In this document: piece by piece, positions 46,801 to 52,854 of the stretch
Numbering within the stretch: position 1 is the stretch's first letter
Layout of the letters: each line of letters starts with the position of its first letter
Assembly (NCBI GenBank): GCA_003167495.1
Contig: PMSX01000342.1
Span: 82,122 to 146,121, forward strand
Direction of reading: 5' to 3'
Source: Bryobacterales bacterium
GTDB taxonomy: Bacteria; Acidobacteriota; Terriglobia; Bryobacterales; Bryobacteraceae
DNA: 64,000 nt
Notes under the pieces: model-generated
What the model saw: the letters and a program-made list of their open reading frames with translations, nothing else
The model's database searches: none
What the model was told of the DNA's origin: nothing
Program-made: the position numbers and the translations under genes

Positions 46801-47233
46801 CTAACGCTTCGACATCAGCGCCGACTGCGGTTGTGCCTGGAACGACGGGAATGCCCGCGGTTTGTGCTAACTTGCGGGCGGCTGTTTTATCGCCGAGGGC
46901 TTCGAGCATCTCGGGATTCGGACCGATGAAGGTGATGCCGGCGCGCTGGCATGCCCGTGGGAGTGCTGGATTTTCAGAGAGGAAGCCGTAGCCGGGGTGA
47001 ATGGCGTCGACGTTTTTGTCGATGGCGAGATCGACGATGGCGTCAATGTCGAGGTAGGCTTCAACCGGTCCTTTGCCCTGGCCGATGAGGTAGGCTTCGT
47101 CGGCTTTGAAGCGGTGGAGACTCAGGCGGTCCTCTTGTGAGTAGACTGCTACGGTGGTGAGTCCGAGTTCGGTGGCTGCTCTAAAAATGCGGGTGGCGAT
47201 CTCGCCCCGGTTCAACGCGAGAAGTTTTTTCAT
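43835..47233 (-). CDS. pyc: Pyruvate carboxylase
   Basis: 1132 aa; biotin carboxylase N-terminus (KKLLALNRGEIATRIFRAATELGL), carboxyltransferase (LLTDTTFRDAHQSLMATRVRSYDLL), biotinyl EAMKMQ at C-terminus. Confidence 0.95.
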   Translation of the reverse strand: MKKLLALNRGEIATRIFRAATELGLTTVAVYSQEDRLSLHRFKADEAYLIGQGKGPVEAYLDIDAIVDLAIDKNVDAIHPGYGFLSENPALPRACQRAGITFIGPNPEMLEALGDKTAARKLAQTAGIPVVPGTTAVGADVEALAKGIGFPLIIKAAFGGGGRGMRVVDSPASLNAKLAEASQEAGAAFGNAAVFLERYIRRAKHVEVQILGDTHGNIIHLYERDCSVQRRHQKVVEIAPAIGLPEKVRAELCAAAVKLARTANYYNAGTVEFLVDVDTHEWFFIEVNPRVQVEHTVTEVVTGIDIVRSQIQIAQGFSLHGAEIGLPQQDAIQLYGTALQCRVTTEDAANNFVPDYGKIHTYRSPAGFGIRLDAASAYGGAVISPFYDSLLVKVTAWGSNFSQACQRMDRALREFRIRGVKTNIPFLENVVKHPAFQSGVTTTSFLDETPELFTFTARRDRATKLLNYLADVTVNGNPEVAGRPKPAVIREAPVPHSTLHTAPEGTRQLLDLLGPTKFAEWSRSQKRLLLTDTTFRDAHQSLMATRVRSYDLLQIADYVAKELPQLYSLEMWGGATFDVAMRFLLEDPWNRLAELRKRIPNICFQMLLRASNAVGYTAYPDNAVEAFIAEAAVQGIDIFRIFDSLNWLPNMKVAVEAAVKTGRVCEAAICYTGDILDPARSKYSLQYYLRLAKELEKMGAHTLAIKDMAGLLRPYAASQLVKALREEIGLPTHLHTHDTSGINAATILKASEAGVHIADAAISSMSGTTSQPNLNSIVAALAHTDRDTGLSFQALNRCSDYWETIRTYYAPFDEAPKSGTAEVYIHEMPGGQYTNLKAQAEAMGLGGRWPEVARMYADVNLAFGDIVKVTPSSKVVGDLALYLLSHGMTVKELENLPPDHHLTLPNSVVDMFMGSLGQPEGGWPPKLQAVILRGEKPVTGRPGETLPPADLNQPEFTKTDLLSYLMYPEVYESFAAARERYGELEILPTPVFFYGLEQRQEVTVELEPGKTLIIRLLTIGDPRPDGMRTVFFELNGQPREVEIRDRSIKEEVPAKRKADPAKPGDVSAPIPGAVTLLHVTAGEKVSKGDRLLVLEAMKMQTSIYAPISGTVKEVCVKPRDAVEARDLLLVIE

Positions 47234-47270
47234 GGCGCAGGAAAGACAAAGTTAACATGATGAGGTTGGT

Positions 47271-47987
47271 ATGAAAGTGGATTCTAGAGAAGTATTGGCG
47301 AAGCTCCAGGGTGAGCCGGCGCCGCTTACGTGGCCGAAACTGAAGAAGGCGTTTGTCAGCAAGAAGTCCGGAGTAACTGAGGGGGACCTGCGCGAAGCGC
47401 TGGCGGCTGAGGGCATTTTCGCCTGGACCAAACCGAAGAATAGCTACTGGTACGTCGATCGCCCGGCGTGGTTGGAGACGGAAATCTTAAAGCTGTCCGA
47501 ACGCAAGGCACTGCCAAAGGTTGCGGTGAAGGGCGCCGGTAAGAAGGAGGTTGAGGATGCTGTCGCACGGTTGGTGGCGGCGAAGAAGATAGTGGCGTAT
47601 CCGGCGGTGGAAGGGAAGAAGAAGGTTTTGGTGGCGGTGGGTGGCCACGACACGTATTGGGCGTATGTGCGGGAGACCATAGCGGAGAAGTTGAAAGAGG
47701 CGGGGATTGAGGAAGCTGGGTTGGAAGAGAAGATTTGGGAGATTTTGCCGACCTTGGAGCCCGAGAAAGATGTGCCAGTATCAACGTCACGGTTGCGCAG
47801 AGCTTTGGGCTTGACACAGGTGGACAAGAAACGTTTTGACGAGGCGGCTCTGCGGTTGCGCGAACAACGGAAGATTTACTTGAGCCAGCATGACCACCCG
47901 CTTGGATTGAGCGCAGAGGACAGGGACTTGCTGATTGACGGGAAGGATGGGAGATACTATGTCGCCATCGCACGCCGAGAGCAGTGA
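47271..47987 (+). CDS. Winged-helix-like basic protein, first gene of putative ATPase/nuclease-translocase module
   Basis: 238 aa, Lys/Arg rich; MKVDSREVLAKLQGEPAPLTWPKLKKAFVSKKSGVTEGDLREALAAEGIFAWTKPKNSYWYVDRPAWLETEIL; wHTH assignment by eye only. Confidence 0.7.
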   Translation: MKVDSREVLAKLQGEPAPLTWPKLKKAFVSKKSGVTEGDLREALAAEGIFAWTKPKNSYWYVDRPAWLETEILKLSERKALPKVAVKGAGKKEVEDAVARLVAAKKIVAYPAVEGKKKVLVAVGGHDTYWAYVRETIAEKLKEAGIEEAGLEEKIWEILPTLEPEKDVPVSTSRLRRALGLTQVDKKRFDEAALRLREQRKIYLSQHDHPLGLSAEDRDLLIDGKDGRYYVAIARREQ

Positions 47988-49770
47988 GGCAGCGAAACGC
48001 GTGCGGAATCCATTCCTGAGTGCGGTGCTTGGGAATCCGCTGGAGGAGAACCCGACGGATGTCCCGGAGATCAACGCGGAGGCGTTTAGAAAGTGCCTGA
48101 GGTTGATTGACGATGTGAGAGAGCAACGGATTACGCTGGCGTTGTTGCTGTTCGGCGAACCGGGGGCTGGCAAGACGCATTTGCTGAGCCGGCTGCGAGC
48201 GACGTTAGAGAGGGAATCACTGGAGGAGGGGCGGGAATCGGTTTTCATTCCGATCCGCATGGTGACCAGCGCGAACATGCTGTGGCGGTTTCTGCGCAGG
48301 CATTTGGCGGTGGCCCTATTGCGACAGCGGACGTTCGCGAGGGTGATCCGGCAGACGCGCGATGAGATTGCAGAGCAGGATCGGAACCTGGCGGTCATAT
48401 TGGGGAACTTGAACGAAGGTGTCCACTTTGCAGATTCGGCGGCTTGGCTGCGTGGACAGGAGTTGCCGGAAGATGTATTGAAGACGCTTGGGGTTGTGTC
48501 GGCGAGTGATGACGAAGAGCAGGAGGCAGTGAGCCGGCAGTTTATTACGACGGTTTGTGGACTGGGTGAGCCGGTTCCTTTCGTTTTTTGTTTTGACCAG
48601 TTGGAAGCTTTGCGGAGTTATCAAGACGATACGGCGGGGTTTTTCAAGCTAGGACAGGTGATTTCGGATTTGCATGATAGTACGCGCAGTGTGGCGCTGT
48701 TTTCTTGTTTGCAGACTTCGATGCTCCCGGTGTTGGAGACTGCTGTACAGAGCGCAGACCGCGACCGGATGCTGGGGAAGCGTGCGGCGCTGAAGGCGCT
48801 GGATTTCGAGCAGGCCCTACAGTTGATCGCAGCGCGTCTACGTACCGTGCCTGAGCTGCAGGGGCAACACCCGATAAAGAAAAGTGACATTAAAGATCTG
48901 TTTGAACAGGACGGGCTTTGTGTCGCGCGCAAAGTGATTGTGCGTTGTCAGGAGGTTTTCGAGAAATGGTCTCAACAGCCGCCGCCCGCCGTCAAGGCGT
49001 TGCCGGAAGACTTGGAAGACAAACTTCGGAAGCTAGAGCGAACTCCGCGTAGTGAGGACGCGGGGGGTATTCTGCGAACCGGGTTACCCGCTATGCTTCA
49101 TCTGCGGGGGATGAAGTTAATAGCGGCCGAGCGACCAAATTCCGCGTTGGATGGCGTGGTTCAAGGCAAGAAGCCGACCGCGATTGCGGTTGCGAATCAG
49201 AAGGCGGGCTGGGTTTTGATTAAGCGATTGGAGGGCGTGCACAAGGATTGGCAAGCATCCGGTGCACCGGGTTTGGTGATTCTGCGGGATGCGCGAAATG
49301 GGATCGGTGTTGGGGCGGCGAAGACTCGCGAGGCGTTACAAAACCTGGAAAAGGCGGGCGCACGCGTGGTGTCAGTGAAGCCGGAGGCGCTGGCCGTGTT
49401 GGAAGCGATCAGCCGTTTGCTGGCGAATGCGCGGAGCGGCGACCTGTCTTACCGGGGTGATTCCGTGCCGGCTACGACAGTGGAAGAGTGGCTGCGGGGC
49501 AGCATGCCGAGAGCGGTGGATGAATTGCTGGATGAGATCGGCGGAGAGAGGGAAGTGGCGCGGGATGAGTTGGCCAGCATGCTAATGGATTTGCTGGCGA
49601 AGGCAAAAGTAATCTCAGTGGAAGATGCGGCCTCCCAATTGGGTAGAAGCGCGGAGGAGGTAGAAGCGTGTGGGCGGCGCAACGCGTCGCTGGTGGGCTT
49701 TGCCGGTGGGAGCAAGCGCGTTTTGTTCCGTGTTATTGAGCGGCAACCGGCGAGAGAAGCGCGAGAGTAG
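47959..49770 (+). CDS. P-loop ATPase (AAA/ORC-like) with C-terminal wHTH-like region
   Basis: Walker A LFGEPGAGKTHLLSRL, Walker B-like PFVFCFDQLEAL; overlaps the preceding gene by 29 bp. ORF track start 47935; 47959 preferred. Confidence 0.82.
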   Translation: MSPSHAESSEAAKRVRNPFLSAVLGNPLEENPTDVPEINAEAFRKCLRLIDDVREQRITLALLLFGEPGAGKTHLLSRLRATLERESLEEGRESVFIPIRMVTSANMLWRFLRRHLAVALLRQRTFARVIRQTRDEIAEQDRNLAVILGNLNEGVHFADSAAWLRGQELPEDVLKTLGVVSASDDEEQEAVSRQFITTVCGLGEPVPFVFCFDQLEALRSYQDDTAGFFKLGQVISDLHDSTRSVALFSCLQTSMLPVLETAVQSADRDRMLGKRAALKALDFEQALQLIAARLRTVPELQGQHPIKKSDIKDLFEQDGLCVARKVIVRCQEVFEKWSQQPPPAVKALPEDLEDKLRKLERTPRSEDAGGILRTGLPAMLHLRGMKLIAAERPNSALDGVVQGKKPTAIAVANQKAGWVLIKRLEGVHKDWQASGAPGLVILRDARNGIGVGAAKTREALQNLEKAGARVVSVKPEALAVLEAISRLLANARSGDLSYRGDSVPATTVEEWLRGSMPRAVDELLDEIGGEREVARDELASMLMDLLAKAKVISVEDAASQLGRSAEEVEACGRRNASLVGFAGGSKRVLFRVIERQPAREARE

Positions 49771-49774
49771 TTCT

Positions 49775-51628
49775 ATGGTGGAACTCTCTATCTCCGATGT
49801 GAGACGGGCATTGTGGCTGGAGATGCAGGGGAGAGAGTCGGAGGGGGAAGCATCGAATCCGCTCCTGGGGCAAATGTTCCACGAAACGATAGCGGAGCTG
49901 TTGGGAGACGACAAGGCCAGTCAGTGGCAGGCCACGTTAGATCAAGAGACAGTGTCGAGTAGCTCTGCGTTAGAAGAACATATTTACGAAAGATTGATTG
50001 GTCCGAGACTGACGGCGCGGCAGGGAGCACTGCAAGAGGCTGGAGAACAGGTGCTGGCTTTGTGGAAAGCCGTGGGCGAGTTCAGCCGTTGGTTAACCCG
50101 TTTGCTGAGTGATGCGGAGAAGACAGGACGTATTCAGTTCGATAGAGAGACGCGGCAATGGACGGGCGACCTGCAGTTCTGTTTGCCTGAGCAGGTTTTG
50201 ACGTGGGATGTTTGTGAGCGGGGATGGCAAGCGGCGGTGCGCGTTTCGGGAATAGCGGATTCGCTTTGGAAAAACCCCGCGACGGGGCGCTGGTGCGTGG
50301 TGGAGTACAAACTGGGTCGAGGCATGTACAAGATCGACTTAGCCCAGGTATGCCTGTATCACGAAATGTTGACGGCCGCGGGTTTGGCAGATACTAGCGG
50401 CGCGGTGGCGTTGATTGCGTTCAAGCCGGAGTTGGAAGAGACGTTTTTCCAGAGCGATGAATTGAACGTAGTGAAAGCGGAGTTGCGGCAATTGATCGGC
50501 AGCTTAGCGGGAGTTTCGGGAAATGGGAAAGCCGCTGTGACCCCGCCCGAAGTCGGAGATGAGGCCGCGTTTGCGGGGCGCAGATTGGTGGAGATATACG
50601 CGCAATATGGTGTGGGAGTGATGTTGATGGGCGATCCTATTGTCGGCCCCTCGTTCATTCGCTATGGCGTCATGCCCACTGGGCGAGTGAAAGTGAGTGA
50701 GATTCGAAAGCGCGCGGACGAGTTGCAGGTACACATGAATCTGGAAACACCTCCTATGATTCACACTGACCGCGGCCGTTTGGTGATTGATGTCAAGCGT
50801 GCGAAGCCCGAGCCGGTGATATTCAGGTCTGTTTTTGGAAAGCGGCCTAAGCGGTTACCCCTGGAGGGTTCCGCGGAACTGCCGCTTGGCGTAGATTTGG
50901 AGAGATACCTACATTCTGTCGATCTCTCACAGAACAATTGCCCGCATCTGCTGGTTGCGGGGACGGCGGGGTCGGGGAAAAGTGAGTGGATGAGATCGGC
51001 CTTAGCTGGCTTGTTACTCGTGAATGTTCCGTCTACGTTGCAATTGGTTTTGATTGATCCAAAGCGCAGCGCGTTTAATGGAATGGAAGGTTCGCCATAT
51101 CTCTTCCAAGGATGGGATGTGTTGCATCCGGGTGATCGCTCCATTTCGGAGGTATTGGACGTCTTGATTGAAGAGATGAATAATCGGAATCTCTTGTTCA
51201 AGCAACAAAAGGCCGACGATCTAGCGGATTACGTCACCAAAACGGGCAAGCCGTTAGCGCGGATTGTCTTGCTGTGTGACGAGTACTTCGACCTGATTGC
51301 AGACAAGAAGACGCGTTCGGAAATTGAAACACGAGTAGCGCGGCTGGGTTCTAAAGGCCGCTCGTCTGGAATTCACTTGATCCTCGCGACGCAGTATCCG
51401 AAAGCCGACGTGGTAACGGGAGTGCTTAAGGCGAACCTTTCCGGTCGAGTGTGCTTACGCATGACCGACGCGAGACAGTCACAAGTAGTGTTAGGCCAAT
51501 CGGGCGCGGAACGGCTTTTGGGAAAAGGCGATTTACTGTTTCAGGACATCGGCGAGCCCAAGCGCCTCCAGGCCCTTTTTCTTCCCGAGGCGGACCGCCT
51601 ACGCATCTTCAAGACAGGCGAATACTAA
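49775..51628 (+). CDS. PD-(D/E)XK (Cas4/RecB-like) nuclease fused to FtsK/SpoIIIE-type DNA translocase
   Basis: N-terminal GIADSLWKNPATGRWCVVEYKLGRG nuclease motif; C-terminal HLLVAGTAGSGKSEWMRSAL (Walker A), IVLLCDEYFDLIA (Walker B), GIHLILATQYPKADVVTGVLKANLSGRVCLRMTDARQSQVVLGQSGAERLLGKGDLLF (FtsK signature). Confidence 0.85.
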   Translation: MVELSISDVRRALWLEMQGRESEGEASNPLLGQMFHETIAELLGDDKASQWQATLDQETVSSSSALEEHIYERLIGPRLTARQGALQEAGEQVLALWKAVGEFSRWLTRLLSDAEKTGRIQFDRETRQWTGDLQFCLPEQVLTWDVCERGWQAAVRVSGIADSLWKNPATGRWCVVEYKLGRGMYKIDLAQVCLYHEMLTAAGLADTSGAVALIAFKPELEETFFQSDELNVVKAELRQLIGSLAGVSGNGKAAVTPPEVGDEAAFAGRRLVEIYAQYGVGVMLMGDPIVGPSFIRYGVMPTGRVKVSEIRKRADELQVHMNLETPPMIHTDRGRLVIDVKRAKPEPVIFRSVFGKRPKRLPLEGSAELPLGVDLERYLHSVDLSQNNCPHLLVAGTAGSGKSEWMRSALAGLLLVNVPSTLQLVLIDPKRSAFNGMEGSPYLFQGWDVLHPGDRSISEVLDVLIEEMNNRNLLFKQQKADDLADYVTKTGKPLARIVLLCDEYFDLIADKKTRSEIETRVARLGSKGRSSGIHLILATQYPKADVVTGVLKANLSGRVCLRMTDARQSQVVLGQSGAERLLGKGDLLFQDIGEPKRLQALFLPEADRLRIFKTGEY

Positions 51629-51637
51629 AATAGGCTT

Positions 51638-51991
51638 GTGAAATCAATCTGCCTAGTTCTTGCTCTTGGTCTGACGGCCTTTGCGGGCCGCGAGGGAAAT
51701 TTCGTTATTCGCTTTGAGCCAAAGGCAATTTTGCAAACGGAGGCCCAGATTCCGTTTGAGATTACCGTATTGAACGATTTGAAGCAGCCGCTACACGAGG
51801 CGAAGGTAACGCTGCAGATTGAGACCAAAGATCATAAGAACGTCAAGGTGTTCAAAGCGCCAGAAACGACGGCGGGTGTGTATCTGGCCAAGCCGGTGTT
51901 TCCAGAACCGGGCGAATGGAGCGTTTACGTAGAAGTGCACCGTAACGACCAAGTGACCGCTCGCACTTTGGAATACACGGTTCCGAAATAA
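51638..51991 (+). CDS. Secreted YtkA/FixH-like domain protein
   Basis: 117 aa; signal peptide; FEITVLNDLKQPLHEAKVTLQIE...AGVYLAKPVFPEPGEWSVYVEV. Confidence 0.7.
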   Translation: MKSICLVLALGLTAFAGREGNFVIRFEPKAILQTEAQIPFEITVLNDLKQPLHEAKVTLQIETKDHKNVKVFKAPETTAGVYLAKPVFPEPGEWSVYVEVHRNDQVTARTLEYTVPK

Positions 51992-51994
51992 ATC

Positions 51995-52786
51995 TTAACT
52001 GATAGCGGCGGTAGCGATTTTGCCAGCGAGCGGACTGCTCGCGACTGCGTACTCGCGGCGAGGCATGCGACCCGAAAGAAACGCGGCACGGCCCGCTTCG
52101 ACAGCAAGCTTCATAGCGAGCGCCATACGTTCGGAATCTTCAGCCTCGGCGATGGCGGTATTGAGCAGGACGCCGTCATAGCCGAGTTCCATGGCGATGG
52201 CCGCATCAGAGGCGGTGCCGACCCCAGCGTCGACGATCAATGGCACGTCTGTGATTGCTTCGCGCAAGATTTTCAAGTTCGTGACATTCTGGATGCCCAG
52301 ACCAGAGCCGATGGGAGCGGCGAGCGGCATGACAGCCGAAGCGCCGGCATCGATGAGTTTGCGGGCGTTGACTAGATCGTCACTGGTGTAGGGCAGAACG
52401 ATAAAACCTTCCTTGACTAACAGGCGAGTGGCTTCGAGGAGTCCGGCGTTATCGGGGAACAAAGTTTTCTGATCGCCAATAACTTCGAGCTTGATCCAGT
52501 TGGAAAGACCAACTTCCTGCGCAAGGCGGGCGGTGCGAATGGCTTCGTCGGCGGTGTAGCAGGCGGCGGTGTTGGGCAGGATGTGGATTTTCGAGCGGTC
52601 GATGAAATCGAGTTCGGATTCCTTGGTGCGATCGGTGAGATTCACGCGGCGCACGGCGAGCGTGACCATTTCGGTGGCGGCTGCGGCGTGACAGCGCGCC
52701 ATGAGTTGTTTGCTGCGGTACTTTCCGGTTCCTAGGAAGAGGCGTGAGTGGAAGGTGCGGCCGGCAATCGTCAAAACGTCTTGCAT
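51995..52786 (-). CDS. thiG: Thiazole synthase
   Basis: MQDVLTIAGRTFHSRLFLGTGKYRS, VTLAVRRVNL, ILPNTAACYTADEAIRTARLA, VDAGVGTASDAAIAMELGYDGVLLNTAIAEA. Confidence 0.95.
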   Translation of the reverse strand: MQDVLTIAGRTFHSRLFLGTGKYRSKQLMARCHAAAATEMVTLAVRRVNLTDRTKESELDFIDRSKIHILPNTAACYTADEAIRTARLAQEVGLSNWIKLEVIGDQKTLFPDNAGLLEATRLLVKEGFIVLPYTSDDLVNARKLIDAGASAVMPLAAPIGSGLGIQNVTNLKILREAITDVPLIVDAGVGTASDAAIAMELGYDGVLLNTAIAEAEDSERMALAMKLAVEAGRAAFLSGRMPRREYAVASSPLAGKIATAAIS

Positions 52787-52854
52787 AATTTCATTATCGC
52801 CGCGCCGGTGGGTGCACGAGTGCCGATAGCCCACGATAGTCGCTTTTTTGCAAA

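Follow-up and report, generated by a model that had tools for sequence, protein, structure and literature searches.

The window examined here (the whole stretch of Bryobacterales DNA that was analysed, 64,000 nucleotides in length) contains a 4.4 kb module of three co-directional genes on the + strand, which we term A, B and C. Gene A runs from an ATG at 47271 to a stop at 47987 (238 aa), gene B occupies 47959-49770 (ATG start, 603 aa) and gene C occupies 49775-51628 (ATG start, 617 aa). The overlap of 29 bp between A and B and the gap of 4 bp between B and C are exactly those given in an earlier, sequence-only reading of this DNA. These genes are the sole content of an inserted islet (47234-51637), recognized by the direct adjacency of pyc and a YtkA-like gene in same-genus genomes that lack the module at this site. 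On the left, pyc lies on the minus strand with its start at 47233; on the right, the YtkA-like gene (51638-51991) is followed by thiG (51995-52834). The previous description of an islet between pyc and thiG was therefore right about pyc, while the immediate right-hand neighbour is the YtkA-like gene with thiG beyond it.

The right edge of the islet falls on a conserved ACTAAAATgAGG...GTG segment upstream of the YtkA-like gene, which is possibly the promoter of this gene with a near-leaderless start. The stop codon of gene C lies inside this segment (window 51622-51640), which other species also have ahead of their YtkA-like gene. No convincing direct or inverted repeats were found at the islet borders. 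There was no clear difference in GC or GC3 between genes A-C and their neighbours, and composition is thus uninformative on transfer.

Gene C encodes a fusion of a nuclease with an FtsK motor, as the sequence-only reading had proposed from the motif GIADSLW...CVVEYKLG, which is present in the protein. The RecB/Cas4-like PD-(D/E)XK nuclease domain (49832-50500, + strand) matches PDDEXK_1 above the Pfam cut-off (2e-5) and has weak matches to Cas4. Its active-site residues H36, D162, E177-x-K179, Q191 and Y195 are conserved among homologues, with D162, K179, Q191 and Y195 each present in 30/31 C proteins, E177 in 31/31 and H36 in 29/30. An FtsK-alpha domain (50531-50779, + strand) scores below the cut-off (PF17854, 5e-4), and lies inside an alignment of PDB FtsK (2iuu) to aa 253-610 (E 6e-37). 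The motor domain follows at 50870-51589 (+ strand; FtsK_SpoIIIE, 8e-27) with its Walker A, GTAGSGKS, at 50960-50983; all 31 homologues have K402 and E503, and at position 502 there is a D in 27 of them and an E in 4. Because the nuclease domain begins right at the start of the protein, there is no room for an FtsK membrane part, and a search of C for the FtsK-gamma domain found none. In these two respects C differs from cellular FtsK, which it resembles in its FtsK-alpha and motor domains, while the pairing of a translocase with a nuclease recalls HerA-NurA. A separate FtsK-like protein is encoded elsewhere (C59) by an 838-aa frame, and is 29% identical to C over the motor.

Gene B encodes an AAA+ ATPase of Orc/Cdc6/BrxC-like type that carries an extra alpha/beta domain and ends in a wHTH. 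The protein matches Pfam AAA_16 (2e-11) and carries the Walker A sequence GEPGAGKTH at 48154-48180. An AF2 model (nine sequences, pLDDT 85) comprises an AAA+ core, an alpha/beta domain and a C-terminal winged helix, and a Foldseek search with this model placed ORC/Cdc6 and BREX BrxC structures among the leading matches. In B homologues the Walker A lysine K72 is invariant, E216 is present in 34/34, and D213 and Q214 in 33/34. The C-terminal wHTH (49567-49731, + strand; aa 537-591) is modelled as three helices and a two-stranded wing, and together with the Walker A this bears out the proposal of a GEPGAGKT ATPase with a wHTH-like tail. Between the AAA+ core and the wHTH lies an alpha-beta-beta-beta-alpha-beta domain (49051-49437, + strand; aa about 365-493), whose order of secondary structures in the AF2 model fits a PD-(D/E)XK core. 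It contains no D/E-x-K, homologues having C/A-N-Q/E at this point. Three viral restriction-endonuclease models were among its weak Foldseek matches, and comparisons with Pfam and with a profile of the C nuclease gave no match. An inactive restriction endonuclease (REase) is a plausible identity for this domain given its modelled fold.

Gene A probably encodes a multi-wHTH DNA-binding protein, since its AF2 model (pLDDT 84) contains three helix/wing units. Its best PDB profile match is a BlaI-like wHTH (weak, E 0.004), and the model has only weak structural matches to winged-helix proteins. Internal wHTH similarity was detected by alignment of the first part of A to its last part (hhalign P 72%, E 3e-5). 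Homologues of A were found in 29 loci, 27 of which are complete three-gene loci. In each pair tested A had the highest dN/dS of the three genes (0.17-0.29, with ranges of 0.09-0.27 for B and 0.04-0.21 for C), making it the fastest-evolving member of the module.

A profile search with B detected the module in 31 of the 237 genomes of the family (13%), representing 18/76 genera, and in very few genomes elsewhere in the phylum. The order and strand of A-B-C were identical in all 27 loci in which the three genes were found. This recurrence, combined with dN/dS values of 0.04-0.29, indicates that the arrangement is not due to chance, and the sampled A, B and C genes are under purifying selection. 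Examination of gene neighbourhoods, as the sequence-only reading had advised, thus revealed a conserved unit whose homologues do not share a single core locus for chromosome maintenance.

The site occupied in the window is empty in six same-genus genomes (G016, G001, G014, G009, G010 and G005), in which the YtkA-like gene lies immediately upstream of pyc and A-B-C is absent from the junction. One of these, G010, carries A-B-C at another place. In G008 the YtkA-like gene is also upstream of pyc, but another stretch of ~1 kb separates them. A second carrier of the pyc/A-B-C/YtkA arrangement is G007, where the locus is split over two contigs. The module moves horizontally among genomes of soil Acidobacteria, as the trees of C and of RpoB disagree at nodes that are strongly supported in each. 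Gene C of G526 groups with that of G044 (99/96) in the C tree, whereas RpoB of G526 groups with its own genus (G529/G531/G532; 100/99), and the C of G526 is only 40% identical to the C of that genus. Similarly, the C of the window groups with that of G608 (99/98), whereas its RpoB groups with that of G535 (100/98). The distances of B and C correlate strongly (r=0.97), which together with the conflict between the C and RpoB trees indicates that the operon travels as a unit.

Some placements of the module recur. Five members of genus g295 were found to have it at a similar place. In three genomes of genus g43 (loci L059/L060/L061) C ends 7 bp from thiG, and these modules and that of the window fall on separate branches of the C tree, such that thiG is found beside the module in two genera with modules of different branches. 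The vicinity of thiG may be a preferred site, or this pattern could be due to chance. In same-genus genomes that lack the module, thiG does not have a YtkA-like gene as its neighbour. In G576 and G602 the module is present in a second copy (loci L077 and L078), with gene C frame-split and either decaying or misassembled.

The flanks of the module consist mostly of housekeeping genes. PADLOC (1e-10) was applied to 107 flank proteins and, as controls, to 108 proteins of carrier genomes and of one relative. Positives were few in the flanks (a UvrD-type helicase and two mad3-like proteins among the first 25 of 47 families listed, with no BREX families among those 25) and few in the controls, and hence there was no defence-island signal. 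The enrichment for defence genes that the sequence-only reading had put forward as a check was not found; the module is a solitary islet and not part of a defence island. Neither B nor the nuclease part of C had a match in phage and plasmid collections or in IMG/VR at the sensitivity used. When a distant homologue of B served as query, a single weak match (3e-4) was obtained on a Tolypothrix plasmid, next to a HerA-NurA pair. On this plasmid (NZ_CP050441.1; L128:3603-9992) a DUF87/HerA protein, NurA and an exonuclease-AAA protein are encoded in a row, the last being the matched protein.

The closest counterpart in the literature is a class of Orc/CDC6-coupled HerA/FtsK capture systems, described in silico from comparative genomics (PMC10853773, NAR 2024). 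Neighbourhoods of this class contain an Orc/CDC6 ATPase into which an inactive REase is inserted ahead of the C-terminal wHTH, together with an active REase and HerA/FtsK; there are two REase families, FtsK-alpha occurs in one HerA/FtsK set and a fast-evolving multi-wHTH protein in a subset. An anti-invader role was proposed, and related neighbourhoods were linked to mobile elements. Five of six features of this class are present in our module, namely an Orc/CDC6 AAA+ protein, an active REase, FtsK with FtsK-alpha, a multi-wHTH gene and a mobile neighbourhood; for the sixth, the inserted inactive REase, the alpha/beta domain of B is a plausible candidate. The likeness extends to the extra domain before the C-terminal wHTH of the AAA+ protein, the PD-(D/E)XK type of the active nuclease, and the separate coding and fast evolution of the multi-wHTH protein. 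Compared with the main text of PMC10853773, which does not mention Acidobacteria, the module differs in the direct fusion of a RecB/Cas4-like nuclease before FtsK-alpha and in being a three-gene islet with no visible mobile-element genes. From its domain make-up the module therefore fits a compact member of this predicted class, and the suggestion of an undescribed system does not stand as the combination of domains had already been reported in silico. No experiment on the class was found in the literature other than most subscription journals.

Several better-known systems share parts of this architecture. The nearest tested machine of similar working principle is DUF4297-HerA, an experimentally confirmed anti-phage system in which a nuclease acts with a hexameric HerA/FtsK motor (PMC11291478); it differs in having two genes, with nuclease and motor as separate proteins, and in having neither an Orc/Cdc6 partner nor a wHTH gene. 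BREX BrxC and the HerA-centred BREX-related capture (BRC) systems, in which HerA/FtsK is recruited (PMC12839542), resemble the module through an Orc/Cdc6-type AAA+ protein with a wHTH, and the fold of B has BrxC as one of its best matches. There is, however, no PglZ, methyltransferase or BrxA/BrxB in the islet, and we rejected a BREX identity as PglZ and methyltransferase genes are missing from an islet of A, B and C alone. SspFGH (PMC8092258) likewise has three genes, a P-loop ATPase and FtsK at the C-terminus of the third protein, but this protein has ~1,760 aa in the PADLOC model as opposed to 617 aa here, A and B are unrelated to the SspG and SspF models and there is no DndC-type phosphorothioation (PT) partner. 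In PADLOC the FtsK part of C matches the SspH C-terminus (9e-51); as this match covers the motor part only, SspFGH identity was rejected. DndFGH/DptFGH share an REase with a HerA/FtsK motor and a multi-wHTH DndG-like subunit, but the compact module has no DndF kinase-like protein and no SF2, DAM or TRD domains of DndH. The earlier judgement that the genes do not correspond to DptFGH, BREX, Wadjet or Zorya is in line with these missing DndFGH and BREX parts and with the lack of any Wadjet or Zorya model match in PADLOC.

We favour, with a probability of about 0.6, an interpretation of the operon as a self-contained and modification-independent machine of the Orc/CDC6-HerA/FtsK capture class that degrades the DNA of invading phages or plasmids. 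In such a machine A and the wHTH of B would recognise some feature of foreign or replicating DNA, and B would assemble on the recognised DNA as an Orc/Cdc6-like ATP switch and load or license C. C would then form an FtsK-type hexamer that draws dsDNA through itself and delivers it to the RecB/Cas4-like nuclease domains of the same protein. We infer the target, the loading step, the direction of movement and the defence role, the last from analogy and from the evolutionary behaviour of the module. This anti-invader reading is supported by a domain make-up in which nearly every element has its equivalent in the published class, by conserved active sites and purifying selection, by the patchy spread, horizontal transfer and empty site, by the split-C copies, by the rapid evolution of A and by DUF4297-HerA as a working analogue (PMC11291478). 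Counting against it are the housekeeping neighbours with no defence-island signal, the lack of carriers among the phage, plasmid and IMG/VR sequences at the sensitivity used, and the retention of the module at a similar place in g295, as might be expected of a stable useful gene.

The main rival is a dispensable machine for DNA repair or end processing, in which B recognises breaks or stalled forks and C resects ends. RecB-type nucleases act in the processing of breaks. HerA-NurA, to which such a machine would be similar, acts in end resection, as described in PMC9960219. Flanks of housekeeping rather than defence genes and the stable retention in g295 are also consistent with repair, but a repair function accords poorly with a presence in 13% of the family, with the strong conflict with the RpoB tree, with a DNA-binding subunit that evolves faster than its partners and with copies in which a split C may reflect decay (or misassembly), and we consider it unlikely. 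Less probable again is that A-B-C is the remnant or core of a selfish element stuck in the chromosome, such as one built from an initiator of Orc type, a processing nuclease and an FtsK-like motor for transfer or segregation. The Orc/Cdc6 fold of B, the precise insertion at a site that is empty in relatives and the ties of related neighbourhoods to mobile elements (PMC10853773) would suit this origin; however, no recombinase, transposase, relaxase, terminal repeats or target duplication were seen at the islet, the compact three-gene unit is without replication genes and plasmid or phage carriers were not found. A phosphorothioate-dependent restriction module (SspFGH or DndFGH) is highly improbable despite the SspH-like motor, the same gene number and the DndG-like multi-wHTH partner, since the other ~1,440 residues of SspH have no counterpart in C, PADLOC gave no match for A and, for B, none to the SspF, SspG or Dnd models, and PT dependence was rejected as a DndC model detected nothing in the carriers searched (0/14).

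A natural variant of the module bears on the division of labour within the proposed anti-invader machine. In genus g282 (L076:8902-12727, + strand) gene A is missing and B is preceded immediately by a gene identified from its sequence as thyX-like. All four of the residues D, K, Q and Y in the nuclease of C are replaced in this locus, and Q214 of B is changed to R, turning DQxE into DRxE. The B frame of g282 is open and under purifying selection (dN/dS of 0.16 between two species); a relative, L079, has also kept B. The joint loss of A and of the nuclease site in one lineage suggests that A may matter for cleavage and not for the motor. A tentative and somewhat unlikely scenario would combine these elements: an immune machine that works without modification, in which FtsK hexamers that bear nucleases are loaded onto foreign DNA by an Orc/Cdc6-type switch together with a wHTH reader that evolves fast, and whose chassis, with motor and switch kept but reader and nuclease site lost, may have been repurposed into a non-cleaving DNA pump in g282. 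The module of the window is a compact 4.4-kb, three-gene version of a predicted anti-invader class with active-site residues that can be mutated, and both a same-genus empty site and a natural variant without reader and nuclease are available for comparison, making the HerA/FtsK capture hypothesis directly testable. A further B homologue stands alone, with neither A nor C (L026:8731-10905, minus strand), and in this protein the wHTH is replaced by a short-repeat tail of the PSGxLK type (LPTGGLKMPSGDLRLPSGGLKVPSGDLKF...).
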